From NCBI RefSeq assembly GCF_035593265.1, contig NZ_CP141614.1, positions 1,922,001 to 1,986,000 of the forward strand: 64,000 bases of DNA, given 5' to 3'. Positions 12,717 through 41,516 of the stretch are shown one piece after another (within the stretch, counting starts at the first letter, position 1; each line of letters opens with the position of its first letter). Origin of the DNA: Limnochorda sp. LNt. Lineage in GTDB: Bacteria; Bacillota; Limnochordia; Limnochordales; Geochordaceae. Position numbers and translations under genes: made by a program. A model generated the notes under the pieces. That model did not search any database. It saw only the letters and a program-made list of their open reading frames with translations, and was not told where the DNA came from.

Positions 12717-15700
12717 TCAGCCTGATCGACCTCGGGCCGACCAGGCCGCCACTTGCGACGGGGAGGAGATGGAGCGGATGACGGGATTCGAACCCGCGAC
12801 CCTCGCCATGGCAAGGCGATGCTCTACCAGCTGAGCTACATCCGCTCGCGGGGCCGGCCCTGCGTCGGCCGGCTCCAAGGCGCAGTCTACACAGCCCGGG
12901 GGGCGGCTGTCAAGGCGAGCCTCGCTCATCACGACCTCTCGTGCACTGAGTCGTCTGGGAAACGCCGCGTCCCCGTGGCTCACCAGGGCCGCCCCCAGGG
13001 CCAGATAGGCCGCGACGGCCATCACGGCCAGGCCTCGGGCCGCAGCGGACACGCCTCGCCGGATGAGGCCCAAGTATAACACGATGCCGGCCGTGAATAC
13101 GGAGAGGAAGGCTTGTGCCAGCGGGCGGAGATGGGCCGTCTCACTCGGCAAGGGCAGCCACGGTAGGGCCAGCCCCGCCAGGGCTAGCGGGGCGAGAAGC
13201 GCGAGGGTCATGATGTGCCCCGTCCGCTCCCATCGTGACCGAGGCACCGGGCGCGCGCTGGACGCCGCCGGCGTGGGCTTCCGCTCCTCCTCCAGGGCTT
13301 CTGCGACCAGCAAGGCCATCGGCGGCAGGATGGGCAGCAAGTATCGGATGACCCTCCAGGCGATGGCATGCAACGCCAGGAAGCCCATCACCGCCCATAC
13401 GATGACAAATGTACGCGTCGTCGCGGCCTGGTGAGCCGACGGGCCCTCCTGCCTCACCTTGCGCAACGCTTGCGTCAGCGCTCCCGGAAGCCATCCGCTC
13501 CAGGGAAGGAAGGCGGCTGCCAGGAGCGGTACGTAGCCGAGGACGAGCGCAAGTCCTTGGGCGGCGGGGGCGCCGGCGAAGAACCGCGCCGTCCCTCCTG
13601 TGAAGAAAACCTCCACGAAAGACGGACCCAGTCGCCACGCCTCCACCACGAACCACGACAGCCCGAGCACGCCAAAGAGTAACGCACCGCCGAGCGTGTG
13701 CGCCACGGCACGCGCAGTCGAGCCCACGAATTGCGCAGGGCTTCTCCGCCCCAGCAGGGCATAGGCAGCCACGATGACCGCGGTCAGTGCGACGCCAAAG
13801 GGGCCACGGCTCAGCATCTCCCCGGCCAGGGCCACCCAGGCCAGGTAAACGAACGCGACGTGCCGCCTGGCCTCGAACTGCAGGACCGCCCAGAAGGCCA
13901 GCGTCGCGAAGAAGGCGGTCGCGACGTCTTGCTGCGGGACCAGGACCGCGTACCAGAAGAGGGTGGACGTCAGCAGCACCCACCCTGCCCGGACGGCGAC
14001 CCGCTCCGGCAGGTACAGTCGTCCGACGTCGACCGTCAACCACAGCAGACCGAGCCCCATGAGCACCTGCCACAGCCTGGCAGCCAGTTCGTTGACGCCC
14101 AAGAGTTTGAAGCTCAAGGCCAGCATCCAGAGGGTCAGGGGCGGCTTGTCGACGATCGCATCCGGGGCAGCCGGGTGGCGGGGCGTCACCCAATCACGGC
14201 TTTGCAGCATCTGCTGCGCGATCTCGGCGTAGTAGTGAGAGTCTCCGTCCGTCAGGGGGGCTGCCAGGGGCACCACGAACAAGACGAGTGCACTGACCCA
14301 TAGCAGGCGGCGCATCGTTGCAGGGTGCCGAAGCCCCTGCCTCCCGATCAGGCGGAGGTACTCCAGCACCGTGGGGATGATCCGGATCTTGCTCGTCCCC
14401 CGTTTTCGGTCGTAGCGCAAGACCAGGGGGATCTCGCTGACTCGTGCACCCAGGCTGCCCAGGTGCAGAAGCAGTTGGGCTGTGCAGGCAAACGTCCTTC
14501 CGTCGACGAGGGCGTCGCCGTATCGCGCGAAGGCCTCCTGCAACACGGCAGCTCGATATGCTCGGTAGCCCGACGTGTAGTCACGGACTCCACGGATCGG
14601 CACCGCGACACGCAGCAACCCGTTGACAACCCGGCTCATCAAGCGGCGGAGCCACGGAACCCCAATCTCCCTCGCGCCGGCCCGGTACCGGGACGCGATG
14701 ACGACGTCGTATCCCCGGAAGACCTGATCCAGCATGGCGGGAGCCTGTGCCGGATCCTGCGTGTCGTCCGCGTCGAGACAGAGGATGACGTCAGAGGGAT
14801 GCGCCCGCTGGGCGGCCCACTGCAAACCATCGCGCAGCGTCGGGGCAAGCCCCTGGTTGGTGGGATGCCGGAGGATGGTGGCAGGGCATCCATGCCGCTC
14901 GGCAGCTTCACGGGCAGCGTCTCCCGTCCCGTCCACGCTGCCGTCGTCGACCACCACCACGTGATGGCGCGTACCAGCGAGGGCTAGCGCTATCCGGCCG
15001 ATGAGGGGGCCGATGTTGGACGCCTCGTTGTAAGCGGGCAGTACCACCCACGCGGAGCCCCCGCCTTCACCGCTCCCGGAAACGGCCCTTGCCGCTTGCG
15101 GGCGGGTCGCGACCGCTGACGATTGCACCGCGGTCTCTCGGCGCCGAAAGAGGGTGCTCCACGTGGCCATCAGGATACCTCCAGCGATGGAAGGTAGATA
15201 GTAGGCGAGGAGGCGGTCCAGCACAACGACACCAGCTGCATCGGGGGAAATGCCACCGGCGGGGTCAAGTGCGTGGCTCAGCAGCAACCCCGACGACCAT
15301 TCAGAGATGCCCATGCCCCCTGGCACCATGGACGCGACCCCCGTGAGCGAGCCGAGCATGAACGCGACGGAGGCATCTCCGACGCCGCCACGCCACCCGA
15401 GGGCCGCGGCTGCCAGCTCCGCCCGCAGGGCCTCAAGGCCGAGGGCGAGGATGGACAGACCGGCTACTCCCGCTCGAAGCTCGGCGCTCGGTGCAGGCAG
15501 ACTGCCGAGGAGACGCCGGCTCCATGGCCCAAGTGGACCGGGCAGGTAGATGAGGGCGCCCATGCCCATGGCGCCCGCCGCGGCTGCCGCGTAAGACAGC
15601 CAGCGCAGCAAAGCCAGGCCTGCATCGGGGCGGCCGTCCGTCCACACACTGCCCGCGATACCAGCCAGGAGCATCAAGGCCGCCAGATCGTAGAGCCGCT

Positions 15701-16103
15701 CCCAAAGCGTCAGGCCCAGGGCCTGTCCGAAGCGTACGCCCTCTCCAGTAGCCATGAGCGCCGGCTTGCCGAGGTCGACCGCACGCCCCGGCGCGACGGC
15801 CCCGGCAGCCACCCCCACCGGTACCATGGCCAGGGCCTTGCCCCACGACAGCGAGCGACCGAGGGCCCACTTGAGCATCTGCCGCCAGCGCAAGGCCTTG
15901 AGGACCAGGTTGGCCAGCCCCGCGAGCGCGGCTGTCGCCACCACGGGCGGGGACGCGTCGCGGATGACGCGGGCGACGCCGGCAGACCAGGACGAGTAGA
16001 CGAACCATCCCAACAAGGCCACCCCGACCAACGCCAGGGCAATCGGCGCCCAACGCCGATGGCGTCGCAGGTGAGGGGTGCTGCCGGCCTCCTGGCTCAG
16101 CAC
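12717..16103 (-). CDS. Three-module membrane glycosylation protein: flippase-like domain, GT2, GT39/ArnT-like
   Basis: A single frame of about 1,128 codons encodes three parts. Residues about 15-315 are a multi-span LPG-synthase/AglD-type membrane domain with MVPGGMGISEW. Residues about 351-580 are a GT2 polyisoprenyl-phosphate sugar synthase with PAYNE, VVDDGSVDGT and LCLDADDTQDP. Residues about 590-1080 are a multi-span PMT/ArnT-like GT39/GT83 transferase. Together they could make a lipid-linked sugar inside, move it across the membrane, and transfer it to an outer acceptor. The GTG start overlaps the aldehyde dehydrogenase stop, so it is probably translationally coupled, but a later start is possible. 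There is no stop before the tRNA-Gly: codons from about 1087 on translate the tRNA, so the real C-terminus is unclear. Confidence 0.75.
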   Translation of the reverse strand: MLSQEAGSTPHLRRHRRWAPIALALVGVALLGWFVYSSWSAGVARVIRDASPPVVATAALAGLANLVLKALRWRQMLKWALGRSLSWGKALAMVPVGVAAGAVAPGRAVDLGKPALMATGEGVRFGQALGLTLWERLYDLAALMLLAGIAGSVWTDGRPDAGLALLRWLSYAAAAAGAMGMGALIYLPGPLGPWSRRLLGSLPAPSAELRAGVAGLSILALGLEALRAELAAAALGWRGGVGDASVAFMLGSLTGVASMVPGGMGISEWSSGLLLSHALDPAGGISPDAAGVVVLDRLLAYYLPSIAGGILMATWSTLFRRRETAVQSSAVATRPQAARAVSGSGEGGGSAWVVLPAYNEASNIGPLIGRIALALAGTRHHVVVVDDGSVDGTGDAAREAAERHGCPATILRHPTNQGLAPTLRDGLQWAAQRAHPSDVILCLDADDTQDPAQAPAMLDQVFRGYDVVIASRYRAGAREIGVPWLRRLMSRVVNGLLRVAVPIRGVRDYTSGYRAYRAAVLQEAFARYGDALVDGRTFACTAQLLLHLGSLGARVSEIPLVLRYDRKRGTSKIRIIPTVLEYLRLIGRQGLRHPATMRRLLWVSALVLFVVPLAAPLTDGDSHYYAEIAQQMLQSRDWVTPRHPAAPDAIVDKPPLTLWMLALSFKLLGVNELAARLWQVLMGLGLLWLTVDVGRLYLPERVAVRAGWVLLTSTLFWYAVLVPQQDVATAFFATLAFWAVLQFEARRHVAFVYLAWVALAGEMLSRGPFGVALTAVIVAAYALLGRRSPAQFVGSTARAVAHTLGGALLFGVLGLSWFVVEAWRLGPSFVEVFFTGGTARFFAGAPAAQGLALVLGYVPLLAAAFLPWSGWLPGALTQALRKVRQEGPSAHQAATTRTFVIVWAVMGFLALHAIAWRVIRYLLPILPPMALLVAEALEEERKPTPAASSARPVPRSRWERTGHIMTLALLAPLALAGLALPWLPLPSETAHLRPLAQAFLSVFTAGIVLYLGLIRRGVSAAARGLAVMAVAAYLALGAALVSHGDAAFPRRLSAREVVMSEARLDSRPPGCVDCALEPADAGPAPRADVAQLVEHRLAMARVAGSNPVIRSISSPSQVAAWSARGRSG
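12770..12845 (-). tRNA. tRNA-Gly (GCC)
   Basis: A complete cloverleaf on the minus strand: acceptor GCGGATG paired with CATCCGC, D-arm AGCTCAGCTGGTAGAGC, anticodon loop TTGCCAT (GCC), T-arm GGGTTCGAATCCC and an encoded CCA. It lies inside the 3' part of the long glycosylation open frame, on the same strand. Confidence 0.97.
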
Positions 16104-17542
16104 ACGCCATCCGGACAGCGGATGCTGACCATCTGCACGTTGGTCATCTCCTCGATGGCGAAGCGCACGCCCTCGCGGCCGAGGCCACTTTGGCGGTTGC
16201 CACCGTAGGGCATGTGGTCGGCCCGGAAGGTGGGCGCGTCGTTGACGACGATGCCGCCGAAGTCCAGCGCCCGGATAGCCCGCAGGACGGCGCCCAGGTC
16301 TCGGGTGAAGATCCCGGCCTGCAGCCCGTACTCGGTGGCATTGGCCATGGCCAGGCCCTCGTCGAGCTGGTCGAAGGGGATGACCGACGCCACCGGGCCG
16401 AAGGCCTCCTGCGCCACCACGCGCAGCTCCGGTCGCACGTCGGTCAAGAGCGTCGGCCAGACGACGGGGCCCTCTCGCCGCCCGCCGGCCACCACCCGGG
16501 CCCCCGCCTCGGTCGCCTCGCGCACCCACGTCTCGATGCGCCGGGCCTCGGCGACGTCGATCATGGGCCCCACGTCGACGCCCTCCTGCAGCGGGTCGCC
16601 CACCGCCATGGCGCGCGTGGCCTCGGCCAGCCGCTCCAGGAAGGGCTCGTAGACGGCGCGCTGCACGTAGATCCGCTGCACCGAGAGGCAGACCTGGCCG
16701 GAGTTGTAGAAGGCGCCCACGGCCGAGCGCCGGGCCGCCAGATCCAGGTCGGCGTCGGATGCCACCACCACGGGTGAGGTGTTGCCCAGCTCGAGGGTCA
16801 CCTTTTTGATGCCGGCCTTCTGGGTGATGGCGCGGCCCACCGCGCTGCTGCCGGTGAAGGTGACCATCCCCACCCGGGGGTCCGTCACCAGCAGGTCTCC
16901 CACCGTCGCGCCCGGCCCCACCACGAGCTCGATGGCCCCCTCCGGCAGCCCCGCCTCCTCCATCGCCTCGCACAGCATGACGGCCGTCAGCGGCGTGTAG
17001 CTGGCAGGCTTGAGCACCACGGCGTTGCCGGCCGCCAGCGCCGGGGCCACCTTGTGGGCCACCAGGTTGAGGGGGAAGTTGAAGGGGGTGATGGCCGCCA
17101 CCACCCCCACCGGACGCCGCACGAAGAAGCCGAAGTACCCCTCGCCCGCCGGCACGGCGTCGAGCGGCACCGTCTCGCCGTGGATGCGGCGTGCCTCTTC
17201 GGCGGCGATGGTGAAGGTGGTGATGCCCCGCTCCACCTCGACCCGCGCGTACTTGAGCGCCTTGCCGGCCTCCGCGGCGATGGTGCGGGCGAAGGTCTCC
17301 TTGCGCTCCTGCAGGATGGCCGCGATCCGGGCCAGGATGGCGGCCCGCCGGTGGGCCGGCAGGGCCGCCATGACCGGCGCCGCCCGGGCGGCCGCCTCGA
17401 CGGCTCGGGCGACCAGCCCGGCATCGGCCTGCCCGACGACGCCGATGGCCTCGCCCGTGTACTTGTGTCGCACCGTCAGGGTCTGCCGGGTCGGGACCCA
17501 CCGGCCGCCGACGTACAGCTGGCCCTGGTGCACCGGGCCCAT
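16097..17542 (-). CDS. NAD(P)-dependent aldehyde dehydrogenase
   Basis: This 481-residue aldehyde dehydrogenase oxidises an aldehyde to the acid. It shows TPFNFPLNLVAHK (cofactor fold), FTGSSAVGRA, general base Glu251 in LELGN and catalytic nucleophile Cys285 in NSGQVCLSVQ. The overall sequence is closest in feel to the lactaldehyde/glyceraldehyde-3-phosphate/succinate-semialdehyde group, but the substrate cannot be fixed. It follows the MoeB-rhodanese gene by 46 bases on the same strand and overlaps the start of the three-module glycosylation gene. Confidence 0.88.
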   Translation of the reverse strand: MGPVHQGQLYVGGRWVPTRQTLTVRHKYTGEAIGVVGQADAGLVARAVEAAARAAPVMAALPAHRRAAILARIAAILQERKETFARTIAAEAGKALKYARVEVERGITTFTIAAEEARRIHGETVPLDAVPAGEGYFGFFVRRPVGVVAAITPFNFPLNLVAHKVAPALAAGNAVVLKPASYTPLTAVMLCEAMEEAGLPEGAIELVVGPGATVGDLLVTDPRVGMVTFTGSSAVGRAITQKAGIKKVTLELGNTSPVVVASDADLDLAARRSAVGAFYNSGQVCLSVQRIYVQRAVYEPFLERLAEATRAMAVGDPLQEGVDVGPMIDVAEARRIETWVREATEAGARVVAGGRREGPVVWPTLLTDVRPELRVVAQEAFGPVASVIPFDQLDEGLAMANATEYGLQAGIFTRDLGAVLRAIRALDFGGIVVNDAPTFRADHMPYGGNRQSGLGREGVRFAIEEMTNVQMVSIRCPDGVC

Positions 17543-30363: not shown

Positions 30364-30752
30364 CTCGCTCGTCTTTCGCCATGCCCGATAGCCGTGCCCT
30401 AAGCCATGGGCATTCGCAAGCCGGCGTAAGCTTCCGAAATCCCGCGATTGAGCCTCATACCACCCCCTGGGCCTTTATAGGCGGCCTTTAGCTAACTTCC
30501 CTCGCCTTGCGTTTCCATACGGAATCGGTTACGGTAAAAGTGCAGAGGCGCTCTTCCCCGGGGGGCGTAGCCATTTCAGGACCGTGAGCGACAACGGCGA
30601 GGGTATACGCAGTGGGCATGGCACCTTTGCCTTCTGCCGGAGCTGCCTCTGCCACCTCGTTAGCGGGGGACCGGACTCCAGGGTCGCAGAACTGGCTAGC
30701 TGTGGGTAGGCCCTGTTATCGATAATGGATAATCGAGGGGATAAGTCCTGAA
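30364..30752 (+). other. Intergenic stretch without a recognisable gene
   Basis: I see no coding signal in these 389 bases. Base composition falls here from the GC-rich backbone to the lower-GC catabolic island, so the island's left border probably lies within it. No direct repeat, tRNA or integrase marks the border. Confidence 0.6.
30716..30725. promoter_or_regulatory. AT-rich palindrome upstream of the GntR-type gene
   Basis: TTATCGATAA is a perfect 10-bp palindrome, followed by GGATAATCGAGGGGATAAG with related ATAA repeats. It lies 28 bases before the GTG of the broken GntR gene and is a plausible autoregulatory operator. No firm promoter boxes were found around it. Confidence 0.4.
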
Positions 30753-31468
30753 GTGCGCACGGTCCAGGCCCGTCTACTGAGAACCCAGGTTTTCGAGGCG
30801 CTGCGAGAAGCCATCGTCACCGGCCAACTTTCCCCAGGGCAGCGGATCACCGAGCTTCGTATTGCCCGAGAGATGGGTACGAGTCAAGCCCCCTAGAAGA
30901 AGAAGGTCTTGTTGAGAGTATACCCCATGTTTGGTCCTTTGTCTCGAACTGGGATATCAGAGAAATGCGCGAAGTATACGAAATCCGGGCAACCATCGAG
31001 GGCTTGAGCGCTGCTCGTACCGTGTCGAGGCTTGTACCGGCGGATTTCGTCGAGCTTGAGAGATTGCTCGATGCACTAGTCGAAGCGGCCACAAAGGACG
31101 ATCCCAAAGCAATAGCCGAAGCTGACCTGGCTTTCCACGCATACGTGAATCGTCGTTCAGAGCATAGAGTTCTGGTCCGCCTCTTCCAGCTGCTCGAAGC
31201 CCAAATTCTTCGCTGCGCTCACATGACTCGCAACCTCACTGGCGCCTACCCACCCGCCAGAGCTCGAGCCGAGCACCAAGCACTTATTGACGCGTTAAGG
31301 ACTGGGCACCCCAAAGCGGCGTCAGAGGCCTTTCGAAACCACGTTAGCTGGGACATTATCGAAGGGAGGTTAGGCCGGGACGCGAGTCCGCACCAAGGCA
31401 CTCCTACCGTGGGTGCCAGAGTCGCCGACCAGTCGTCTGACCGACCTTTGGGGGGAGGACTGACATGA
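30753..31468 (+). pseudogene. GntR/FadR-family regulator broken by a small deletion in the DNA-binding domain
   Basis: Codons from GTG at 30753 give a typical GntR winged-helix start (VFEALREAIVTGQLSPGQRITELRIAREMGTSQAP) and then hit TAG at 30894. The family continuation appears two bases out of frame from 30893 (LEEEGLVESIPHVWSFV) and runs through a complete FCD ligand-binding domain to 31468. The expected VREALRR-type stretch between the halves, part of the recognition helix region, is missing. A deletion of about 20 bases therefore explains both the shift and the loss. An ATG at 30965 could still express the FCD domain alone. It directly precedes the importer genes it should have controlled. 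Confidence 0.8.
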
Positions 31469-32754
31469 ACCCGAGTCGCTACCAAGCCACGGTGTTAACT
31501 GTGTGCCTCGTTTCGCTAGCTCTCGTCGGGTCGCTAGCCACACTTGCCGCGGCAGCGCCTGTAACGTTGCGCTTTCAAAGCTGGCGGCTGGCCGATCCGG
31601 TGTCCGGACCTTTGTACATGAAGTGGATTGCGGAGTACCAGCAGCTTCATCCAAATGTTAGGATTGAACCAGAGCCTGTTCCGCACGCTCAGCGATTGGA
31701 GAAGTTTATCGCACAGGTGCTGGCAGGCGACCCGCCAGACGTGGTGGGACTAACTACCGGTGATGTGGTGCAGTTCGCGGCCCTGGGTCAGGTTGAGAAT
31801 CTTGACCGGTTCTATCAGGCTGAGGGGCCGGAGTTCATTCGCAGCTTTACACCGGTAACCCTTGCCTTGTCGGAGCATGAAGGGTCCTACTACGCGCTGT
31901 CGCATGAAGTAGTAACCACTGACGGCATGTGGTACAATGTGGACCTCCTTGCTAAGGCAGGTCTCGACCCCGAGGAGGCCCTGAGCACGTGGGATGCTTT
32001 CGTAGCTGCTTCCAAGAAGTTGACAGGCGCCGGAACGTACGCCATGGCGTTGCGTGGCAAGGACACCACCGGCTCCATGGCCAATCTGTGGAGCTTTCTC
32101 TCCCAGCTGAGTGGGCCGCTCGTCACTGAGGACGACATACGCAAGAATCTTGATTCTCCTGGCGCCCTGAAAGTGTTCAAGGAATACGTGGAATTGTACA
32201 CCGTACACAAGGTAACGCCGAATCCCCTCGACATTGACTTCACGGCAATGAGCACCCTCTTTGCCCAGGGGCGGACCGCCTTCATGCACAACGGCTCGTG
32301 GATGAAGCCCATTATTGAGCAGCAAAACCCTGCCATGAAGGGTCGCTTCCTACCTTATTCAATTCCCACCTTCGCCGGTGGGAACCGTATCGCCCTCGCG
32401 GACGGCATGGCGTTTATGATTGGAAAGGGTTCCCGGCACGCCAGCGAAGCGTGGGAGTTCATGAAGTTCATGGTTAGCCGCAAAAAGCAGATGGAGAATC
32501 TGGAGGTAGCCGGGTTCCTTCCGTCGCTGACCGAACTGGCGGGGGCCGACCGCATACTAAACGACCCGTACCTCGCGGTGTTCGCGCGTGAACTGGCTGA
32601 ACGTGGAGTACCGCGTCCACGGACGGCGAAGCTTAACGAAATCTGGACTGAGGTGCAACAAGCGTTCCAGGCGGTATTGCTTGGCCAGAAGACGCCGGAG
32701 GAGGCACTCCGGTCCGCAGCGAATCGCATTCGATCGGACATTCTCCGTCCGTAA
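31465..32754 (+). CDS. ABC sugar-importer substrate-binding protein
   Basis: This 429-residue family 1 solute-binding protein has a signal peptide (about residues 1-31, cleaved after LAAAA) without a lipobox cysteine. The mature fold shows WIAEYQQLHPNVRIEPEPVP, DPPDVVGLT, GMWYNVDLLAKAGLDP and WEFMKFMVS. Its ATG overlaps the end of the GntR remnant (ATGA). Codon use and base content are lower in GC than the backbone. Neighbouring enzymes suggest a sugar acid or acidic glycoside as cargo (inference). Confidence 0.92.
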   Translation: MNPSRYQATVLTVCLVSLALVGSLATLAAAAPVTLRFQSWRLADPVSGPLYMKWIAEYQQLHPNVRIEPEPVPHAQRLEKFIAQVLAGDPPDVVGLTTGDVVQFAALGQVENLDRFYQAEGPEFIRSFTPVTLALSEHEGSYYALSHEVVTTDGMWYNVDLLAKAGLDPEEALSTWDAFVAASKKLTGAGTYAMALRGKDTTGSMANLWSFLSQLSGPLVTEDDIRKNLDSPGALKVFKEYVELYTVHKVTPNPLDIDFTAMSTLFAQGRTAFMHNGSWMKPIIEQQNPAMKGRFLPYSIPTFAGGNRIALADGMAFMIGKGSRHASEAWEFMKFMVSRKKQMENLEVAGFLPSLTELAGADRILNDPYLAVFARELAERGVPRPRTAKLNEIWTEVQQAFQAVLLGQKTPEEALRSAANRIRSDILRP

Positions 32755-32767
32755 AGCTGGAAGAGCG

Positions 32768-32814
32768 CGGGCAGGCGACGCACCAAACTTGGGCGTCGTC
32801 TGCCCGATTTTCTT
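32768..32814 (+). terminator. Strong intrinsic terminator inside the importer operon
   Basis: A 14-bp stem pairs CGGGCAGGCGACGC with GCGTCGTCTGCCCG, has an 11-base loop and is followed by ATTTTCTT. It lies between the binding-protein gene and the first permease gene, so most transcripts should stop after the binding protein, giving it higher expression than the permeases. Confidence 0.88.
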
Positions 32815-32848
32815 GACAAGCCTTTGGAGGGGTTTCGGAGGGGTATAG

Positions 32849-33763
32849 ATGCAAGTTACGGCTCGGGTAGCCCCCGCCCAGCCCGTTGGTCGTTCACATC
32901 GATGGCGTCTTAATCCAGTACTTCCATGGATCTTGCCAACGCTTATCATTCTGGCGCTGGTACAGCTGTTCCCGTTGCTATACTCATTCTACTTGAGTCT
33001 CTCTCGGATTTCACTTGATCTCCGAACGGAGCTCATCGGGTTGGCAAATTACCACCGTATCGTCCGGGACCCCACGGTAAGGGCCGCCCTTTGGCACAGT
33101 GTCGTATTCACTGTGGGCGGCGTCGCAGGACAGCTGGTTGTTGGTCTAGTCAGTGCCCTGCTTCTCAACTATGGACTGCGCGGTCAGCGTTGGATGCGGT
33201 TGGCGATGCTCATACCCTGGGTGATCCCTACGGTCATTACCGCCCTAGTGTGGCGATGGATGCTAGACAGTCACTTCGGTGTCATGAATGACTGGCTCGT
33301 TCGTGCGGGTATCCTGGACAGCTTCCGTTCGTGGCTTGGAATGCCAGACACGGCCCTCGCGGCAACGGTGCTCGTAAATGTTTGGAGAGGCAGCCCGTTC
33401 GTCGCGGTGATGCTGCTTGCAGCGCTGCAGCTGATCCCGAAGGAACACTACGAGGCCGCTCAAGTAGATGGTGCGGGCTCCTTCCAGCAGTTTCGGTATA
33501 TTACTCTCCCAGGCGTCATGTACACAATGGCCTTGGCCGGAACGATGAGCGGAATTTGGTCGTTTAAAGAGTTCGCGCTCATTCAGCTGCTTACCGAAGG
33601 AGGTCCGGCAGGAGCAACAGAAGTTGTCGGAACGCTGGTCTACCGCATGTTCTTCCAATACGCCAGGTTCGGCGAGGCTGCGGCCCTCGGGGTTCTTGTT
33701 TTCCTTGTGCTCTTCGTCGCGAGCACGTACTACTTGCGACTGGCGACCAGGATTGAAGACTAG
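32849..33763 (+). CDS. ABC sugar-importer permease, MalF-like
   Basis: This 304-residue permease has six predicted membrane spans and the cytoplasmic EAA loop (HYEAAQVDGAGSFQQFRYITLPG) that docks the ATPase. The start has GGAGGGGT upstream. It forms a heterodimer with the second permease encoded beyond the insertion sequence. The gene ends 17 bases before the element. Confidence 0.92.
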   Translation: MQVTARVAPAQPVGRSHRWRLNPVLPWILPTLIILALVQLFPLLYSFYLSLSRISLDLRTELIGLANYHRIVRDPTVRAALWHSVVFTVGGVAGQLVVGLVSALLLNYGLRGQRWMRLAMLIPWVIPTVITALVWRWMLDSHFGVMNDWLVRAGILDSFRSWLGMPDTALAATVLVNVWRGSPFVAVMLLAALQLIPKEHYEAAQVDGAGSFQQFRYITLPGVMYTMALAGTMSGIWSFKEFALIQLLTEGGPAGATEVVGTLVYRMFFQYARFGEAAALGVLVFLVLFVASTYYLRLATRIED

Positions 33764-33776
33764 CGCGCAACAGTAG

Positions 33777-33780
33777 CTAG
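33777..33780. repeat. Left target-site duplication, CTAG
   Basis: CTAG directly abuts the left end of the insertion sequence and is repeated at 35393-35396 on the right. Confidence 0.7.
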
Positions 33781-35392
33781 TGCCTCCTGACAAAATCGCC
33801 GTCCGTCGTTAGAGGGGAGTCTGGACCTTTGGCAACCCCAGCTCGTCATGCCGCCCTGTCCGGTCCTGCCCCGGCGGGGGTCTGCTCAGGCGCCTGCCGG
33901 GGCCAGGGCCAGCAGCCGGCGGGCCGCCCGGGTCAGGTTGTGGGCAAAGAGGCCCTCCCCGCTCCAGGTCGCTGCCCGCTCGGCGCCCCGATAGCGGCTG
34001 CGGTCGAGTTCAAAGGCGTCTTTGAGATGCGCAATGCGCCCCTCCTGGCCGCTGCGCCAGCGCAGCAACCGCCGAAAGGCCCGGCGTCGCTCGAAAAGTC
34101 GACGAGCCCGACCGCCTCGGGCTGGCAGGGCCACGTGCGCGATGCCCATCGCCCGCAGCGCCGCGTCGTTGGCCCGGCTGCTCATGCCCCGGTCGGCGGC
34201 CACGGCTCGGGGCGTGGCTCCGACCGCGTGGATGTGGCCCGCCACGGCGTCCACCAGCAAGCTGTCGTCGCTGGGATTGCCGACATGCAGCCGCCAGTGG
34301 CTGATGAAGCCCTCCTGGGTCTCCACCAGGGTCAGCTTGTAGCCGAACTCAACGGGCTTCGAAAGCTTCCCCCGCCGGATGGGCCGCGCATCCGGGTCGA
34401 AGAGGCTGACCAGCCGGTCCGGGATGGCCCGGAGGCCCTGCAGCCGAAGCTGGGTTTGCTCCAGTACCCGGCGCAGGCGCTGGGTGTACGTGACCAGGCC
34501 CTGCGCCAGGGCCCGGTAGCGCGCCCCCACGGCTGGGCCGAGCTTTCGGATGCGGCGCTGGACGGCCCGGGCCATGCGCTGCGCCTCTTGAAGCGTCTGC
34601 TCGGCCCGCCGAGCCACTTCGGCGGTAAGCCGGTCCACCTCGGCCTGGGCCTTCTCCCCTCCCCGGCGAAGCATCTGGCCGATGCGGCGCAGCCGGCGGC
34701 GGACCGAGCGCAGGCGGTCTCGAACCGAAAGGCGGACCCCGATGCCGGCTTCCTTGGCCCGGCGCATCAGCCGCGTCAGCACCCGCACCCCGTCGGCCAG
34801 CAGGCCCGCGTCGGTGGGGTGATGGATGTTCGCTTCCATCACCGTGGTGTCCACCCGGATCCGCTGGCCGTGGCGCTTCATCAGCCGCGCCTCCACCAGC
34901 TGGGCCATCAGGGCGTCGTTGAGTTGCTCGATGACTTCCGGACCCAGCCGGTGGGTCAGCTTGATGAGGGTGGTGGCATCGGGCACCTTGTCGGTGAGGC
35001 GCAACCGGCAGAAGCTCCGCCAGACCAGGCTATCGGCCACTTCCTTGACCAGCGCTTCGAAGCCCAGCCGGTAGCGGCGCTTCAGGTACATCATGCGCAG
35101 GTACGTCTCCAGGGGGATGGTGGGCCGACCCCGCCGAGCCGTGAGCTTGCGCCGGATGGGCGAAAGTCTGCGCTCGTCGTCCAGCAGCCGGTCGATGATG
35201 GCCAGCTCCTTGGGCAGCTCGAAGAGCTGGGGGTCGATGAGGCTTTCGAACAGGTCCGCCTTGAAAGCCACGTTGCGCTCCCGACGCACGATGCCATGCC
35301 TCCTGGGGCCGATTTTAGCATCGGTCGGTCTCGGGGAGGAGAGGGGTCACCCCGTCACGACGGGCTTTTCTCGGCGACTTTATCAGGGGCAA
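33781..35392 (-). mobile_element. 1.6-kb insertion sequence (ISNCY/IS5-like, DDE transposase)
   Basis: The element spans 1,612 bases. Its ends form an imperfect 21-bp inverted repeat: TGCCTCCTGACAAAATCGCC at the left and TTGCCCCTGATAAAGTCGCC (complement) at the right, best matched in the CCTGAyAAArTCGCCG core. CTAG flanks both ends. It lies exactly between the two permease genes. Removing it with one CTAG leaves a 36-base spacer that keeps the second permease's ribosome site. Its high GC (72% in one sampled line) contrasts with the island around it. Confidence 0.85.
33886..35289 (-). CDS. DDE transposase of the insertion sequence
   Basis: This 467-residue transposase has an N-terminal DUF772-type domain (IPLETYLRMMYLKRRYRLGFEALVKEVADS), a first catalytic Asp in RIRVDTTVMEANIHHPTD, an Arg-rich insertion (about 185-260), a second region with AADRGMSS and a C-terminal Glu-containing segment near RSGQEGRIAHLKDAFELDR. 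The frame is intact, so the element may still move. It is transcribed against the surrounding operon. Confidence 0.9.
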   Translation of the reverse strand: MRRERNVAFKADLFESLIDPQLFELPKELAIIDRLLDDERRLSPIRRKLTARRGRPTIPLETYLRMMYLKRRYRLGFEALVKEVADSLVWRSFCRLRLTDKVPDATTLIKLTHRLGPEVIEQLNDALMAQLVEARLMKRHGQRIRVDTTVMEANIHHPTDAGLLADGVRVLTRLMRRAKEAGIGVRLSVRDRLRSVRRRLRRIGQMLRRGGEKAQAEVDRLTAEVARRAEQTLQEAQRMARAVQRRIRKLGPAVGARYRALAQGLVTYTQRLRRVLEQTQLRLQGLRAIPDRLVSLFDPDARPIRRGKLSKPVEFGYKLTLVETQEGFISHWRLHVGNPSDDSLLVDAVAGHIHAVGATPRAVAADRGMSSRANDAALRAMGIAHVALPARGGRARRLFERRRAFRRLLRWRSGQEGRIAHLKDAFELDRSRYRGAERAATWSGEGLFAHNLTRAARRLLALAPAGA

Positions 35393-35396
35393 CTAG
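35393..35396. repeat. Right target-site duplication, CTAG
   Basis: This is the second copy of the 4-bp direct repeat flanking the insertion sequence. AAGGGGGG, the ribosome site of the next gene, begins three bases later. Confidence 0.7.
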
Positions 35397-35413
35397 CTAA
35401 GGGGGGCGGCGGC

Positions 35414-36229
35414 TTGAGGCGTCTCACGGTGTATCTCTTGCTTGCTGCGATGGTGATTGTATCTCTTGGCCCTGTGGCTTGGATGGTGTCTACGGCCTTC
35501 AAGCCGAAGTCCGAGACATTCGCGTTACCCACGTACTGGCTACCGAAGTCTCCGACCCTAGACAACTTTGTGGAGGCGTGGCGAACCCAGCCGATTGGAC
35601 GCCAGTTCTTCAACAGCCTTATAGTGGCCAGTTCAACCACCGGCCTTGCTACCGCTCTGGCCATCCTAGCCGGGTACGGCGTCTCCCGCTTCTCGTTCGG
35701 GCAGCGGGACCTGTTCCTTCGCCTCATTCTCGTTGGCCAGATGTTCCCGGGAGTCCTACTGGTTCTTCCCTACTTTATCCTCATGCGGAGGCTGGGCCTC
35801 ATCAATACCTATTGGGCGTTGGTTCTCGCCTACACCTCGTTCGCGCTGCCCTTAGCCACCTGGATGATGCGCGGGTACATGATGGCTGTTCCCCGAGAGC
35901 TGGATGATGCGGCCATGGTCGATGGATGTACTCGCCTGCAAAGCCTTGTCCGTGTGGTGCTACCCGTTGCCAAGCCGGGCATTGTAGCCACCATGATCTA
36001 CACGTTCATGGTGGCGTGGTCGGAGTACCTGTTTGCTCTCGTGCTAACTACGACAAAGCATATGCAGCTACTTACTGTCGGGGTAGGCTCGCTCCTGCTT
36101 CAATACGGGATTGAGTGGAACCAGCTGATGGCCATCGGCTCAATCGCAGTGGTGCCGATTCTAGCCATTTTTGCATTCATGGAGCGCTACCTTGTGGCCG
36201 GGCTCACTGCCGGAGCAGTCAAGGGTTAG
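35414..36229 (+). CDS. ABC sugar-importer permease, MalG-like
   Basis: This 271-residue six-span permease has the EAA loop ELDDAAMVDGCTRLQSLVRVVLPVAKPG and the conserved C-terminus GLTAGAVKG. The likely start is TTG at 35414, eight bases after AAGGGGGG; no ATG fits before the first span. Because the insertion sequence separates it from the first permease, expression depends on read-through or a promoter in the element's end. It partners the permease at 32849-33763. No ATPase gene accompanies the pair. Confidence 0.9.
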   Translation: MRRLTVYLLLAAMVIVSLGPVAWMVSTAFKPKSETFALPTYWLPKSPTLDNFVEAWRTQPIGRQFFNSLIVASSTTGLATALAILAGYGVSRFSFGQRDLFLRLILVGQMFPGVLLVLPYFILMRRLGLINTYWALVLAYTSFALPLATWMMRGYMMAVPRELDDAAMVDGCTRLQSLVRVVLPVAKPGIVATMIYTFMVAWSEYLFALVLTTTKHMQLLTVGVGSLLLQYGIEWNQLMAIGSIAVVPILAIFAFMERYLVAGLTAGAVKG

Positions 36230-36260
36230 CAGTCATCGCCCTGGGTATTGGAGGGGGACC

Positions 36261-37163
36261 GTGTACTCTATCGCAGGCGTTGTTGCTGTGTTGCAGATCC
36301 CATTTCTTCCAGACGGGGAAGTTGACTGGGAAGGACTGAAGAAAATTGCGGTGTTTGCGACCGAGAACGGCGCGTCGGCAGTGGCATTTGGCTACGCCAG
36401 TGAATTTCCGAAGCTAGACACAGCCGAACGGGAGCAGGCTTTACTGACGGCCGTCCAAGCTTGTGAGGGAAGGGTCCCCGTGGTAGCGTGGTGCGCCGCA
36501 GAAAGCACGAGGGTAGCAAGTCGGCTAGTGCGACGCTCCCGGGAACTAGGTGCTTCGATGGCTGTCGTGACACCTCCGCCGGGGGCCGAAAGCTTCGCCC
36601 AGGTGCGGCGCCACCTTCACGAGCTTACACAGGAGGGGCTTCCTCTCGTGCTCCAGGATGCGCCGGAATGGTCGAGGGTGCATCTCTCGGTAGAGCAGCT
36701 TTGCGAGTTGTGCACGACACCTGGGGTAATTGGACTTAAGGTCGAATCTCAACCTACGTGGGTGAGGGTGCGCGCAGTACGCCAACAGCTTGGGAAGCAC
36801 GTCACCGTCCTTGGAGGCTTCGGTGGCCTATACCTATGCGCCGAGCTAGCTGCAGGCAGCGATGGGGTGATGCCCGGCTCAGCGCATCCCTGGGTGTTTG
36901 CCAACGTGATCCGGGCTTTTCGACAGGGTCGTGAAGAAAGTGCGTTGGAACAGTACCGCAACCTGTTGCCGTACCTAGTTGTTAGTTCCCATCGGTTAGA
37001 CGACTTCATTTGGATTCAGAAGGAGATCCTCCGCCGCTTGGGGGTGATTCAGTCGTCGTCGCTTCGACAACCCGGCGAGGCGCCCGATGATTTCACCCTT
37101 CGGCTCGCCTTGAGTCTGGCTGAGCGACTGGGGCTACTGGCTGGAGCTCAGGGTGTGGGCTAA
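36261..37163 (+). CDS. DapA/NAL-superfamily lyase, divergent member
   Basis: This 300-residue TIM-barrel enzyme of the dihydrodipicolinate-synthase/N-acetylneuraminate-lyase family has Schiff-base Lys160 in GVIGLKVES. The usual GSTGE substrate loop is replaced by FGYASEF, and the YNYP tyrosine motif is not evident (LQDAPEW lies there), so its chemistry may differ from the second family member in this operon. The GTG start follows GGAGGGGGA. The substrate is probably a keto sugar acid (inference). Confidence 0.78.
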   Translation: MYSIAGVVAVLQIPFLPDGEVDWEGLKKIAVFATENGASAVAFGYASEFPKLDTAEREQALLTAVQACEGRVPVVAWCAAESTRVASRLVRRSRELGASMAVVTPPPGAESFAQVRRHLHELTQEGLPLVLQDAPEWSRVHLSVEQLCELCTTPGVIGLKVESQPTWVRVRAVRQQLGKHVTVLGGFGGLYLCAELAAGSDGVMPGSAHPWVFANVIRAFRQGREESALEQYRNLLPYLVVSSHRLDDFIWIQKEILRRLGVIQSSSLRQPGEAPDDFTLRLALSLAERLGLLAGAQGVG

Positions 37164-37206
37164 CGGCCGCAGCTACGTCACTATCTGCCGAAGAGGAGAG
37201 GACAGC

Positions 37207-38367
37207 ATGCGCATCGAAAAGGTGGAGCTCATTCGACTCACCTATCGCTACTCGCCGGACCAAGCCTGGGGCTGGCCAGGTGGAACCTATCGGGGATGGA
37301 CAGCCGCCTTCGTCCGGGTCACGGACGACGAAGGGTGTTATGGCATTGGCGAGATTGGCGATGGGTTGCCCGCCCCTCAACTCCTTCCGCCGATCATCGA
37401 GCGGGTGAGACAGATGCTCGTGGGCAAGGACCCTCGCTGCGTCCGTGGCCTCTTAGACCGCCTATATCGCAGCGCCCCCGGTTGGGGCCGCAGAGGGATC
37501 CACATTTCCGTCCTGTCCGGGGTCGAAAGCGCCCTGTTCGACCTGCTTGGCAAGCGTCTCGGCGTTCCAGTGCACGTATTGCTGGGGGGAGCCGTTCGAA
37601 CGCGACTGCCCGTTTACGCAAGCGGGGGCGTTGACTCATCTCTCGATCAGCTCGTTCGAGAGCTAAGAAGTTACGTGGAGCGCGGCTTCACGGCTGTCAA
37701 GGTTCGCATCGGCTATGGGTACGCACGTGATATTGCTATCGTGGAAGCAGCCCGCCATGCGGTCGGGAAAGACGTCCGTCTACTGCTTGACTTTGGGGCA
37801 AGCTACCTACCCTGTCCTCCCAATCTTGTCGACGTGGCGCGGCTTGCGCGAGAGCTGGAGAAGTTCGATCCTTACTGGCTCGAAGAACCGCTGTTTCCCG
37901 ACGATGTCTCCGGTCACCGTCGTCTGCGCCAAATGACGCATATTCCTATTGCCCTCGGGGAAAACACGCGAACACACCACGAGGTGTTGCCTTTCCTGGA
38001 ACAGGGAGCTGTCGATATTCTACAGACCGATGCCGTGTACGCCGGAGGGATGCTTGAACAGCTTCGGATCGCGTCACTGGCCGCTCAGTACGGGGTTATG
38101 ATGGCCCCCCACACGTGGGGCAGCGCGCCTGGCTTGATGGCAAATCTGCACGCATTCGCATGCATGCCAAATGGCTTGATAGCTGAATACTCGCAAATGC
38201 ATAATCCGTTGCGCGAACGGCTTCTCCTGGCACCGCTGCAGCTCGAGCATGGTGAGCTTGTGCTCCCGGAACATGCCGGCCTTGGGATTGACTTACCGGA
38301 ATCATTGGTGTCCGATTACCCTTACGATCCGGATGCTGGTGCTGTCCTGAAGATTGAGTCTGAGTAG
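37207..38367 (+). CDS. Enolase-superfamily (mandelate racemase-type) sugar-acid dehydratase
   Basis: Enzymes of this family abstract a proton alpha to a carboxylate; many dehydrate sugar acids to 2-keto-3-deoxy acids. The 386-residue protein has an N-terminal capping domain and a barrel with Lys165 (VKVRIG), metal ligands Asp195, Glu226 and Glu252, and an Asp275/His302 pair (LQTDAV, APHTWG), the mandelate-racemase subgroup pattern. The ATG sits behind GAGGAGAG. It is flanked by two DapA-family lyases that could cleave its product. Confidence 0.88.
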   Translation: MRIEKVELIRLTYRYSPDQAWGWPGGTYRGWTAAFVRVTDDEGCYGIGEIGDGLPAPQLLPPIIERVRQMLVGKDPRCVRGLLDRLYRSAPGWGRRGIHISVLSGVESALFDLLGKRLGVPVHVLLGGAVRTRLPVYASGGVDSSLDQLVRELRSYVERGFTAVKVRIGYGYARDIAIVEAARHAVGKDVRLLLDFGASYLPCPPNLVDVARLARELEKFDPYWLEEPLFPDDVSGHRRLRQMTHIPIALGENTRTHHEVLPFLEQGAVDILQTDAVYAGGMLEQLRIASLAAQYGVMMAPHTWGSAPGLMANLHAFACMPNGLIAEYSQMHNPLRERLLLAPLQLEHGELVLPEHAGLGIDLPESLVSDYPYDPDAGAVLKIESE

Positions 38368-38380
38368 AGGGGTTGTGACC

Positions 38381-39340
38381 GTGGGCAACACGAGTCTCAC
38401 CGGTATTGTGGTCCCGGTAGTAACGCCGTTGGTCGAGGGGGAGTATGTCGATGTGTCCGCCCTAGGTGCGGAAGTTGACCGCCTCGTTGCTGCAGGGGTA
38501 CACGGCATTTTCGTGTTGGGGTCCACGGGCGAGTTTCCAGCCCTTCGAGAAGGGGAAAAAGAGCGAGCCATCCGGGCCGCTGTCGAGGCCGCCGGCGGGC
38601 GCGTACCAGTGCTCGCTGGAGCCACAGAACCTGGCACCGAGCGCGCCGTCGCCTGGGCGAAGGCCGCAGCACAGTTGGGTGCTGACGCAGTTGTGGTGGC
38701 ACCCCCGTATTACTACCGGATGGACCGCCGGGCTCTTCTTCGTCATTTCAGTGCCGTTGCTAAAGCTTCCCCGATCCCTCTTGTGCTGTACAACTACCCA
38801 CAGACGACGGGTAACGTGATCGACGTCGAGACGGTAAGTGAGCTTGCCCACGCAGCGCTAGTCATTGGCATCAAGGACAGCGGAGGCGACCTCATCTACC
38901 TTCAGTCCCTGACCAGCCGAATGCCAGAATCGTGCACCCGGCTCATCGGTCATGAAGGGCTGGCAGCGGCGGCACTGCTGTGCGGCTACGCGACAGGGGT
39001 CGTTCCCGCTATGGCGGCTGTTGTTCCCGAGTTGTTCGTGAGTCTGTGGGAGGCGTACCGGCGGTCTGACGTTCAAGCCGTCCGCAGATTGCAAGCGGAG
39101 ATAGACCGATGGATTGCTCTATACAGCTTGGGACCCGTCCCGGTGGTGGTAAAGGCATGCCTGTGGTTGCTCGGCCGTCTGCAGAGCCCGCTGGCGACGT
39201 TGCCTTTGGGGCAGCTCGACGTGCAACTCGTTGAGCGCCTTCGGGAGTGGCTTGACTCCCACGGCCTGCCGGTTCGCGAACGGGAGGAGGTAGAGCGATG
39301 GTTCGGCACATTATCGACGTACACGCGCACTTGGGAGTAA
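38381..39340 (+). CDS. DapA-superfamily aldolase (2-keto-3-deoxy acid aldolase or dehydratase-like)
   Basis: A canonical member of the family: GSTGEFPAL loop, Tyr139 in YNYPQTTG and Schiff-base Lys165 in IGIKDSGGD, in 319 residues. It most likely cleaves or dehydrates the 2-keto-3-deoxy acid made by the dehydratase encoded just upstream, giving pyruvate and an aldehyde. A role in lysine synthesis is unlikely in this operon. GTG at 38381 lies eight bases after AGAGGGG; GTG at 38375 and TTG at 38354 are alternatives. Confidence 0.88.
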   Translation: MGNTSLTGIVVPVVTPLVEGEYVDVSALGAEVDRLVAAGVHGIFVLGSTGEFPALREGEKERAIRAAVEAAGGRVPVLAGATEPGTERAVAWAKAAAQLGADAVVVAPPYYYRMDRRALLRHFSAVAKASPIPLVLYNYPQTTGNVIDVETVSELAHAALVIGIKDSGGDLIYLQSLTSRMPESCTRLIGHEGLAAAALLCGYATGVVPAMAAVVPELFVSLWEAYRRSDVQAVRRLQAEIDRWIALYSLGPVPVVVKACLWLLGRLQSPLATLPLGQLDVQLVERLREWLDSHGLPVREREEVERWFGTLSTYTRTWE

Positions 39341-40080
39341 GTGAGACTCTCCAAGTCGGAGTCAACGTCGACGGTTTGCTCCGTCTCATGGACGCCAACG
39401 CGATCGAGATGGCCATCTTGTCACCGATTCCCGGATACGCCGATCCTGACGGTATCCGCGACACGATGGCTCAGAATGACGCTATCGCTGCGGCAGTCAG
39501 GCGGCACCCAGACCGATTCCCGACAGGGTTTGGCACTGTCGAGCCAAGGCACGGAGCTTGTGCTCTAGACGAAGTGAAGCGCATCAGGGAAGAACTGGAG
39601 CTACGTGGGTTAGCCTTTCACTGCGACTACCAGGGAGTACCCATCGACCACCCGATCATGTACCAAATTCTCGAGCGCGCGGCGGCGTACCCAGGTACGG
39701 TGGTACTCATGCATACGGCGCAGCACTCGGTGTTGGAACCGCCGTTCATGCTTGCAAAGGTTGCAGAAGCGTTTCCGGACATCGTCTTTATCAATGGTCA
39801 TCCCGCTATGAACGGGACACATCTCGCCAGTTCGCTCTACGTCAGCCAGAAGTGCTCGAACGTATATCTGGATCTCGCTGTGTGGTATACTACGCGGGAT
39901 CCTGTTCGCTTGGCTGTGACTACGTTGGGCCCTGACCGCATCTTGTTTGGCTCTGACTTACCATATTACCGCTACTCTTTCGATAAGCTCCTAGTCGAAT
40001 ACGCTGAGATACCTGCCGAGGTGAAAGAAGCCATCTTCTGGAAGAACGCAGCCCGACTGTTTGGTATCGGTCGCTCGTAG
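39298..40080 (+). CDS. Amidohydrolase-superfamily (amidohydro-rel 2) metal-dependent hydrolase
   Basis: This 260-residue TIM-barrel hydrolase has metal-binding HAH (His9, His11), a barrel His in GLAFHCDYQG, MHTAQHS, INGHPAMNG and Asp in LFGSDLPYY. Family members include lactonases that open sugar lactones, and decarboxylases; a lactonase would fit between an oxidised sugar and the dehydratase. It overlaps the preceding aldolase gene by 43 bases and begins behind GGGAGGAGG. Confidence 0.85.
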   Translation: MVRHIIDVHAHLGVSETLQVGVNVDGLLRLMDANAIEMAILSPIPGYADPDGIRDTMAQNDAIAAAVRRHPDRFPTGFGTVEPRHGACALDEVKRIREELELRGLAFHCDYQGVPIDHPIMYQILERAAAYPGTVVLMHTAQHSVLEPPFMLAKVAEAFPDIVFINGHPAMNGTHLASSLYVSQKCSNVYLDLAVWYTTRDPVRLAVTTLGPDRILFGSDLPYYRYSFDKLLVEYAEIPAEVKEAIFWKNAARLFGIGRS

Positions 40081-40166
40081 TGGTGGTGTCGCCCCATTAC
40101 CTGGCGTGAGAGACAGCGGATTCGGTGGGCGTCGGCAAGGCACTGACCCAGAAGGGAAGTGAGCGG

Positions 40167-41516
40167 ATGCGCCAGTTTCCGCAGGGCTTCTTGTGGGGAT
40201 GCGCCACCGCCTCCTATCAGATCGAGGGCTCGCCTCTGTCAGACGGCGCTGGACCCTCCATATGGCACCGGTTCAGTCATACGCCGGGTAACGTGTTGGG
40301 CGGCGATACCGGAGACGTAGCCTGCGATCACTACCGCCGATGGCGGGACGACGTGGTCCTCATGCGCGAACTTGGAATTAGAGCTTACCGATTCTCCATC
40401 GCCTGGCCTCGGGTCCTCCCGGAAGGCCGCGGTGCGGTGAACGAGAACGGCCTAGCCTTCTACGGCCGCTTAGTGGACGCGCTCCTCGAAGCAGATATCA
40501 TCCCATTCGTTACACTTTACCACTGGGACTTGCCCGGTTCGCTCCAGGACTTGGGCGGGTGGGCTAACCGGGACGTTGCTGGGTGGTTCGCTGACTACGC
40601 CGATGTGCTTTTTGGTCGGTTGGGTGACCGTGTCCATCACTGGATTACGCTCAACGAGCCCTGGTGCGTGGCTCATCTCGGGTACATCCTCGGCCAGCAC
40701 GCGCCCGGGATGCGTGACCTGTGGGCAGGGTTGCGGGCTGTTCACAACCTCCTGTTGGCTCACGGCCGTGCAGTGCTAGCCTTTCGTCAGAGGAACATGC
40801 CGGAAGGCCGAATCGGCATCACATTAAACTTCCGCCCCCCGCATCCAGGGAGCCAATCAGAACAGGACCGGGCTGCCGCGCGACGCGCGCATGCCTACCA
40901 CAATCGCCTCTTCCTGGATCCCATCTTCACTGGACGCTATCCCGATCCGATCGTCCAATGGTTCAAGGACAGCTGGCCCGAAACACTACAGAGCGACCAG
41001 GACGTTATCAGGGCGCCTATCGACTTCCTCGGCGTAAACTACTACACCCGAAACGTCGTGGTCCACGCACCCGGGACCGGGCTGTTACACACACGCGTCA
41101 TCCGCCAACCGGGACCGCACACCGCGATGGGATGGGAGATTTATCCAGAGGGGCTATTCGAGCTCTTGCTTTGGATCCATCAGGCGTACGGGAGCCCCGT
41201 CCTCTACATTACGGAAAACGGTGCCGCATTCGAAGACCGTCCTGACCCGTCGGGAACGGTACGCGACACCGACCGTCTCGACTACCTTCGCCAGCACTTT
41301 GTGCAAGCTCACCGGGCCATTCAGGAAGGGGTTCGCTTGCAGGGATATTTCGTATGGTCGCTGATGGACAACTTTGAGTGGGCTCATGGTTACTCCAAGC
41401 GCTTTGGGATCGTCTACGTAGATTTCGGCTCGCAAAAGCGCACCATCAAGCAAAGCGGACACTGGTATTGCGGGGTAATCGCCCGCAACGGCTTGGAGAA
41501 TGACGACTTAGGATAA
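40167..41516 (+). CDS. Glycoside hydrolase family 1 beta-glycosidase
   Basis: This 449-residue retaining beta-glycosidase has general acid Glu164 in TLNEPW and nucleophile Glu350 in YITENG. FLWGCATASYQIEG is at the N-terminus and the binding motif GYFVWSLMDNFEWAHGYSKRFG near the C-terminus. There is no signal peptide, so it acts on imported oligosaccharides or glycosides, including 6-phosphate forms if such are made. It is the last gene of the low-GC island. Confidence 0.93.
   Translation: MRQFPQGFLWGCATASYQIEGSPLSDGAGPSIWHRFSHTPGNVLGGDTGDVACDHYRRWRDDVVLMRELGIRAYRFSIAWPRVLPEGRGAVNENGLAFYGRLVDALLEADIIPFVTLYHWDLPGSLQDLGGWANRDVAGWFADYADVLFGRLGDRVHHWITLNEPWCVAHLGYILGQHAPGMRDLWAGLRAVHNLLLAHGRAVLAFRQRNMPEGRIGITLNFRPPHPGSQSEQDRAAARRAHAYHNRLFLDPIFTGRYPDPIVQWFKDSWPETLQSDQDVIRAPIDFLGVNYYTRNVVVHAPGTGLLHTRVIRQPGPHTAMGWEIYPEGLFELLLWIHQAYGSPVLYITENGAAFEDRPDPSGTVRDTDRLDYLRQHFVQAHRAIQEGVRLQGYFVWSLMDNFEWAHGYSKRFGIVYVDFGSQKRTIKQSGHWYCGVIARNGLENDDLG

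Follow-up and report, generated by a model that had tools for sequence, protein, structure and literature searches.

A three-domain fusion in Limnochorda sp. LNt as a probable single-polypeptide form of a three-component glycosylation system

The open frame and its surroundings

Positions in this account refer to the analysed stretch of DNA as a whole, a window of 64,000 nt that spans 1,922,001 to 1,986,000 of contig NZ_CP141614.1 from Limnochorda sp. LNt (GCF_035593265.1), a genome consisting of a single contig. On the minus strand of this window, an open frame for a protein of 1128 amino acids starts with GTG at 16103 and stops with TGA at 12719-12717; its features and immediate surroundings are listed in Table 1. 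Three Pfam domains are found above their curated cut-offs: LPG_synthase_TM (PF03706; residues 23-308; E 5e-23), Glycos_transf_2 (PF00535; residues 353-523; E 3e-22) and PMT_2 (PF13231; residues 652-790; E 1e-13). The same Pfam search returned no DUF2156 match. Against NCBIfam, the flippase-like family TIGR00374 scores above cut-off, with the polyprenyl-phosphate sugar synthases and ArnT below theirs.

Table 1. Coordinates of the fusion modules and adjoining features within the window
Feature	Position	Strand	Basis or remark
Aldehyde dehydrogenase gene	16097..17542	-	directly upstream; 7-nt overlap between its stop and the GTG start of the fusion
Module 1: LPG_synthase_TM / AglD2-YbhN (UPF0104) flippase-like membrane domain	15069..16103	-	residues 1-345; Pfam, TIGR00374, hydropathy
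Module 2: cytoplasmic GT2, polyprenyl-phosphate sugar synthase-like	14328..15068	-	residues 346-592; Pfam, structure match
Module 3: PMT_2/ArnT-like GT-C transferase	12939..14327	-	residues 593 to ~1055; Pfam, ArnT 5EZM match
Frame tail: short, extramembrane, entering the tRNA-Gly unit	12717..12938	-	residues ~1056-1128
tRNA-Gly promoter (TTGACA, 18 nt, TAGACT)	12884..12913	-	conserved in four genomes
tRNA-Gly, anticodon GCC, within the 3' end of the fusion frame	12770..12845	-	ARAGORN
Intrinsic-terminator-like stem past tRNA-Gly, overlapping the stop of the frame	12718..12748	-	sequence conserved in relatives

The frame contains no internal stop, compared with 10-31 stops in each of the other five frames, and the longest open run obtained in 300 shuffles was 731 codons against the 1128 observed. 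GC by codon position follows the frame from ~16100 to ~12876, remains steady through both module junctions and gives no sign of a frame shift in the main body of the gene. Upstream of 16103 this signal passes to the frame of the aldehyde dehydrogenase gene, into which the reading frame of the fusion is also open. The single frame with its three domains is confirmed as a real fusion by Pfam, by codon-position GC and by the lack of stops, and the order given for it in an earlier note (flippase-like, synthase, transferase) is borne out.

The neighbouring genes encode aldehyde dehydrogenase, MoeB-rhodanese, YeeE/YedE, sulfurtransferase and threonine synthase; these are not glycan genes and offer no hint of the sugar or the acceptor. 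Elsewhere in the window, at ~30500-41500, GC falls to about 0.60 with a flattened third-position signal, the genome being otherwise at 0.70-0.74 GC. Genes of that segment resemble, from their first residues, sugar ABC transporter, enolase-type, dihydrodipicolinate-synthase-like, amidohydrolase and GH1-like proteins, and the segment is probably an acquired sugar-use island.

Module identity and predicted topology

The first module is predicted to cross the membrane with ~8 helices, followed by a linker of ~30 residues (about residues 315-345). It has no relative by sequence among solved structures and is identified by Pfam and NCBIfam. The nearest solved structure to the GT2 module is the dolichol-phosphate mannose synthase of P. 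furiosus (5MLZ; E 7e-23), with ArnC second, and the domain is by sequence a putative GT-A polyprenyl-phosphate sugar synthase of the kind found in three-component systems. The third module, with ~13 transmembrane helices, matches the ArnT structure 5EZM (E 7e-17), and the frame ends shortly past the last of these helices. Hydropathy and the positive-inside rule place both termini of module 1, with its eight helices, on the inside; by hydropathy the GT2 module is predicted to be cytoplasmic, with a loop of 11 Lys/Arg residues ahead of the next helix, and the first loop of the ArnT-like module to lie outside. The PMT_2 match and the position of D621 in this first loop mark module 3, by sequence, as a GT-C enzyme with a predicted extracytoplasmic acidic active site, and the predicted topology thus puts the GT2 and transferase active sites on the sides where each is required. 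A single-sequence structure prediction of residues 1-1074 returned a mean pLDDT of 41 and a pTM of 0.27.

Alignment to 5EZM pairs ArnT D55, Y59, K85, D158, R270 and Y345 with D621, Y625, K653, D726, R840 and Y921 of the fusion, respectively; E56, R58 and Y82 of ArnT are not conserved. We take D55, D158, K85, R270 and Y345 to be catalytic and carrier-binding positions, as in the 5EZM work. In the Burkholderia ArnT, the key residues are Y43, K69 and R254, and Glu493 of the C-terminal domain is needed for activity (PMC5377068). The first three correspond to 5EZM Y59, K85 and R270 and are all kept in the fusion (Y625, K653 and R840), the two numberings being matched through the motifs RYA and YFEKP for Y43 and K69 and by assumption for R254. 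The C-terminal periplasmic domain of the ArnT type, which bears Glu493 in Burkholderia, is absent from module 3, and the ArnT equivalog of NCBIfam is matched at 82 bits, far from its cut-off of 567 bits.

A contiguous frame might nevertheless yield modules that act as separate proteins, through internal starts or proteolysis of the linker. The low complexity of residues 315-345 would suit such processing, and a GTG stands just ahead of the GT2 core and an ATG ahead of the ArnT module. Neither junction, however, carries a well-placed ribosome site: the GGAGG precedes the ATG by ~24 nt, and ~16 nt separate the GTG from the purine-rich stretch. The junction between the GT2 and ArnT modules has no spare linker. 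Separate products are accordingly regarded as improbable.

The 3' end and the tRNA-Gly unit

The low coordinate in the earlier note, 12717, needs correction. Codons ~1064-1128, that is the last ~65, coincide with a complete tRNA-Gly unit (promoter, body and terminator), with the TGA at the base of the terminator. Because these codons read through a conserved unit, 12717 is best understood as a chance stop and not as a normal gene end. Three genomes of the same family have this tRNA-Gly ahead of trigger factor, clpP, clpX and lonB; one of them is fragmented, and its tRNA-Gly/trigger factor neighbourhood is split over two contigs. The genes upstream of the tRNA-Gly in these relatives differ, appearing by eye to encode sugar ABC transporter, ROK and SIS-type proteins, and since they are unrelated to the fusion, the junction between fusion and tRNA-Gly is specific to the genome studied here. 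The overlapped tRNA is also the sole Gly tRNA with a GCC anticodon found in this genome by similarity search (an 88% match carries CCC), and the fusion therefore overlaps a probably essential gene.

No stop belonging to the fusion itself occurs in frame before the tRNA-Gly unit. A one-base shift within 12982-12931 would produce a TGATGA stop at 12931-12926, immediately ahead of the tRNA promoter, and the deposited sequence near the 3' tail may thus contain a small error, or ribosomes may truly read through.

These features could alternatively mark a decaying gene that lost its 3' end on reaching the tRNA-Gly and now encodes an inactive transferase or an unstable protein. The missing C-terminal domain of ArnT and the want of a stop before the tRNA unit are what such decay would leave, and a fusion/tRNA junction confined to this genome, in a family where the tRNA-Gly-trigger factor arrangement is conserved, fits it as well; in addition, RNase P cleavage of a read-through transcript would be expected to leave an mRNA devoid of a stop. 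Against this, more than 1000 codons are intact and of normal codon-position composition, the key residues are kept, and a homologue encoded elsewhere (genome G099) is naturally short, ending right after its last helix, so that ArnT-like forms without the C-terminal domain do exist. Decay of the fusion is on balance quite unlikely, although the truncated transferase and the unusual 3' end do lower confidence in its full activity. The description of the protein as a self-contained machine, given in the earlier note, is plausible but runs beyond the evidence, the flippase role being a predicted one and the C-terminal domain of ArnT missing; together with the tRNA-overlapped end, this leaves it unproved. 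In outline, the earlier interpretation is reasonable and partly supported.

Relatives, proposed function and known systems

The fusion of LPG_synthase_TM, GT2 and PMT_2 occurs in one of the 872 distinct genomes searched, namely the one described here. No further fused copy emerged from a peptide-pattern scan of 84,980 species, a method limited to close relatives, or from searches of plasmids and phages. As the sampling of genomes above class level is partial, the fusion is called rare and not unique.

Homologues of the modules are encoded as separate genes, in a tight operon with the order GT2, flippase-like, ArnT-like, in G009 (a member of the same order of bacteria), G108, G180, G431 and G140, and the trio of G009 is joined by 4-base ATGA overlaps. 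The GT2 and flippase-like genes of G099 are neighbours, with its ArnT-like gene in convergent orientation. Pfam confirmed the domain assignments of the flippase-like genes in G009 and G108, and those of the ArnT-like genes in the same two genomes and in G140 and G099. Identity between the fusion modules and their stand-alone homologues is 43-51% for GT2, 25-27% for the flippase-like and 22-33% for the ArnT-like proteins. The closest GT2 (51%) and ArnT-like (33%) genes lie next to each other in G197, with no flippase-like gene detected. The view that the three activities usually reside in separate proteins thus agrees with six Bacillota loci but is qualified by fusions of another kind, described below. 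Frameshifts or stops splitting the modules in relatives had been named as grounds for rejecting the fusion; the modules are indeed separate there, but they are genuinely independent genes whose order differs from that in the fusion, a pattern that speaks for a fusion event rather than for gene breakage. The recurrence of such clusters in other Bacillota supports the view that the modules belong together, as judged from sequence.

The same comparison bears on whether the fusion is an artefact of assembly or sequencing that links separate genes. The restriction of the fusion to one genome would be expected of such an error, and the potential natural stop a single base shift away means that the 3' tail could be affected. 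The clusters of the relatives, however, start with GT2, and neither the loss of a stop nor a miscalled base can convert their order into that of the fusion; moreover, both junctions are free of stops and steady in codon-position composition, and the genome is one contig. Error as the source of the fusion was set aside as extremely unlikely, given this module order and the clean frame.

Taken as a real fusion, the protein probably represents a known kind of system, three-component transmembrane glycosylation, carried on a single polypeptide. We infer all three activities, the coupling of the modules, the sugar and the acceptor. On the cytoplasmic side, the GT2 module would transfer one sugar from a nucleotide sugar to polyprenyl phosphate; the lipid-linked sugar would then reach the outer leaflet by way of the N-terminal flippase-like module, and there the ArnT-like GT-C module would pass the sugar to a surface acceptor outside the membrane. 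This acceptor is most likely lipid A or another part of LPS, with protein, an S-layer or another surface glycan as alternatives. This genome encodes LpxC, as do all 13 other genomes of the order that were searched, indicating that the cell makes lipid A and rendering an LPS-linked acceptor plausible. An argument that the absence of lipid A would preclude an ArnT-type acceptor was dropped, LpxC being present. Cultured Limnochordia are reported to be diderm (PMC11456536).

In archaea, proteins of the LPG_synthase_TM family have been connected with PMT/STT3-like and AglD-like genes, and a flippase activity was proposed for them (PMC5898192). In the fusion, this domain, a sugar-lipid synthase and a transferase are bound to a fixed 1:1:1 ratio, a strong case of guilt by association. 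More tentatively, and with less than even probability, the sugar-lipid may pass along the one chain (synthase, flippase, transferase) without release, by way of the LPG_synthase_TM module; were this true, the disputed flippase step could be tested with one purified protein. Direct proof of flipping is lacking for the GtrA, SMR and MATE candidates (PMC11127046 among sources), and with the identity of the polyprenyl-phosphate-sugar flippase unsettled in most systems, the fusion provides a single construct for a reconstitution assay.

It is also conceivable that the N-terminal module anchors the GT2 domain or handles another lipid, and that the lipid-linked sugar is flipped by another protein. 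The flippase role of UPF0104 is only a predicted one (PMC5898192), a Pseudomonas gpgF mutant still makes its lipid, with flipping unverified (PMC12713373), and related GT2 genes pair with a different type of transporter. On the other side, the trio of modules recurs as clusters in several genomes, and the homologous domain of MprF is reported, in work cited in PMC5898192, to be required for translocation of lysylphosphatidylglycerol. A flippase outside the fusion is therefore considered unlikely, and the N-terminal module is retained as the candidate. A locus of another class (L065:5179-7807) encodes a related GT2, then a 130-residue EamA/SMR-type protein and then a PMT_2 protein, and the pairing of the same GT2 clade with an EamA/SMR-type gene suggests that the presumed flippase is exchangeable.

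The three-component scheme is documented for teichoic acid, O-antigen and further surface glycans (PMC8035078; PMC11127046). GtrA-GtrB-Gtr, CsbB-GtcA-YfhO and GtlA-GtcA-GtlB have the same three predicted roles as the fusion, namely a GT-A synthase, a flippase and a GT-C transferase. Systems of the GtrA-GtrB-Gtr type, however, consist of separate proteins with GtrA as presumed flippase, whereas the Limnochorda protein is one polypeptide with LPG_synthase_TM and an ArnT/PMT_2-like transferase; across the documented systems, the flippase is GtrA, Wzx, MATE or SMR (PMC8035078; PMC11127046). The three modules of the fusion also occur side by side in Bacillota clusters (L026, L061, L063 and L064 among them) and in the archaeal arCOG00899/arCOG00563/arCOG00897 neighbourhood, but the Bacillota clusters are made up of separate genes with GT2 first, and their ArnT-like proteins mostly retain the C-terminal domain. 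ArnT (5EZM) itself resembles module 3 in its membrane part and key active-site positions, but has E56, R58, Y82 and a C-terminal periplasmic domain that module 3 is without. Two other families share the flippase-like domain in different architectures. AglD of Haloferax likewise fuses GT2 to LPG_synthase_TM (UPF0104), but with GT2 N-terminal and UPF0104 C-terminal, an order reversed in the fusion, which adds a third module. MprF combines LPG_synthase_TM with a DUF2156 lysyl transferase that is absent from the fusion.

A parallel in organization is found in four Bacillota genomes that encode GtrA-GT2-PMT_2 fusions of 902-958 amino acids (L068:4600-7473, L069:5122-7995, L070:4394-7108 and L071:3909-6614). 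These are likewise one chain with the same functional order, but their flippase-like domain is PF04138 and their GT2 and PMT_2 domains are only distantly similar to those of the Limnochorda protein. Fusing the logic of flippase, synthase and transferase is thus not unprecedented in principle, while the combination with LPG_synthase_TM is new. Together, these proteins exemplify the joining of the same three-step logic in one chain with two types of presumed flippase.
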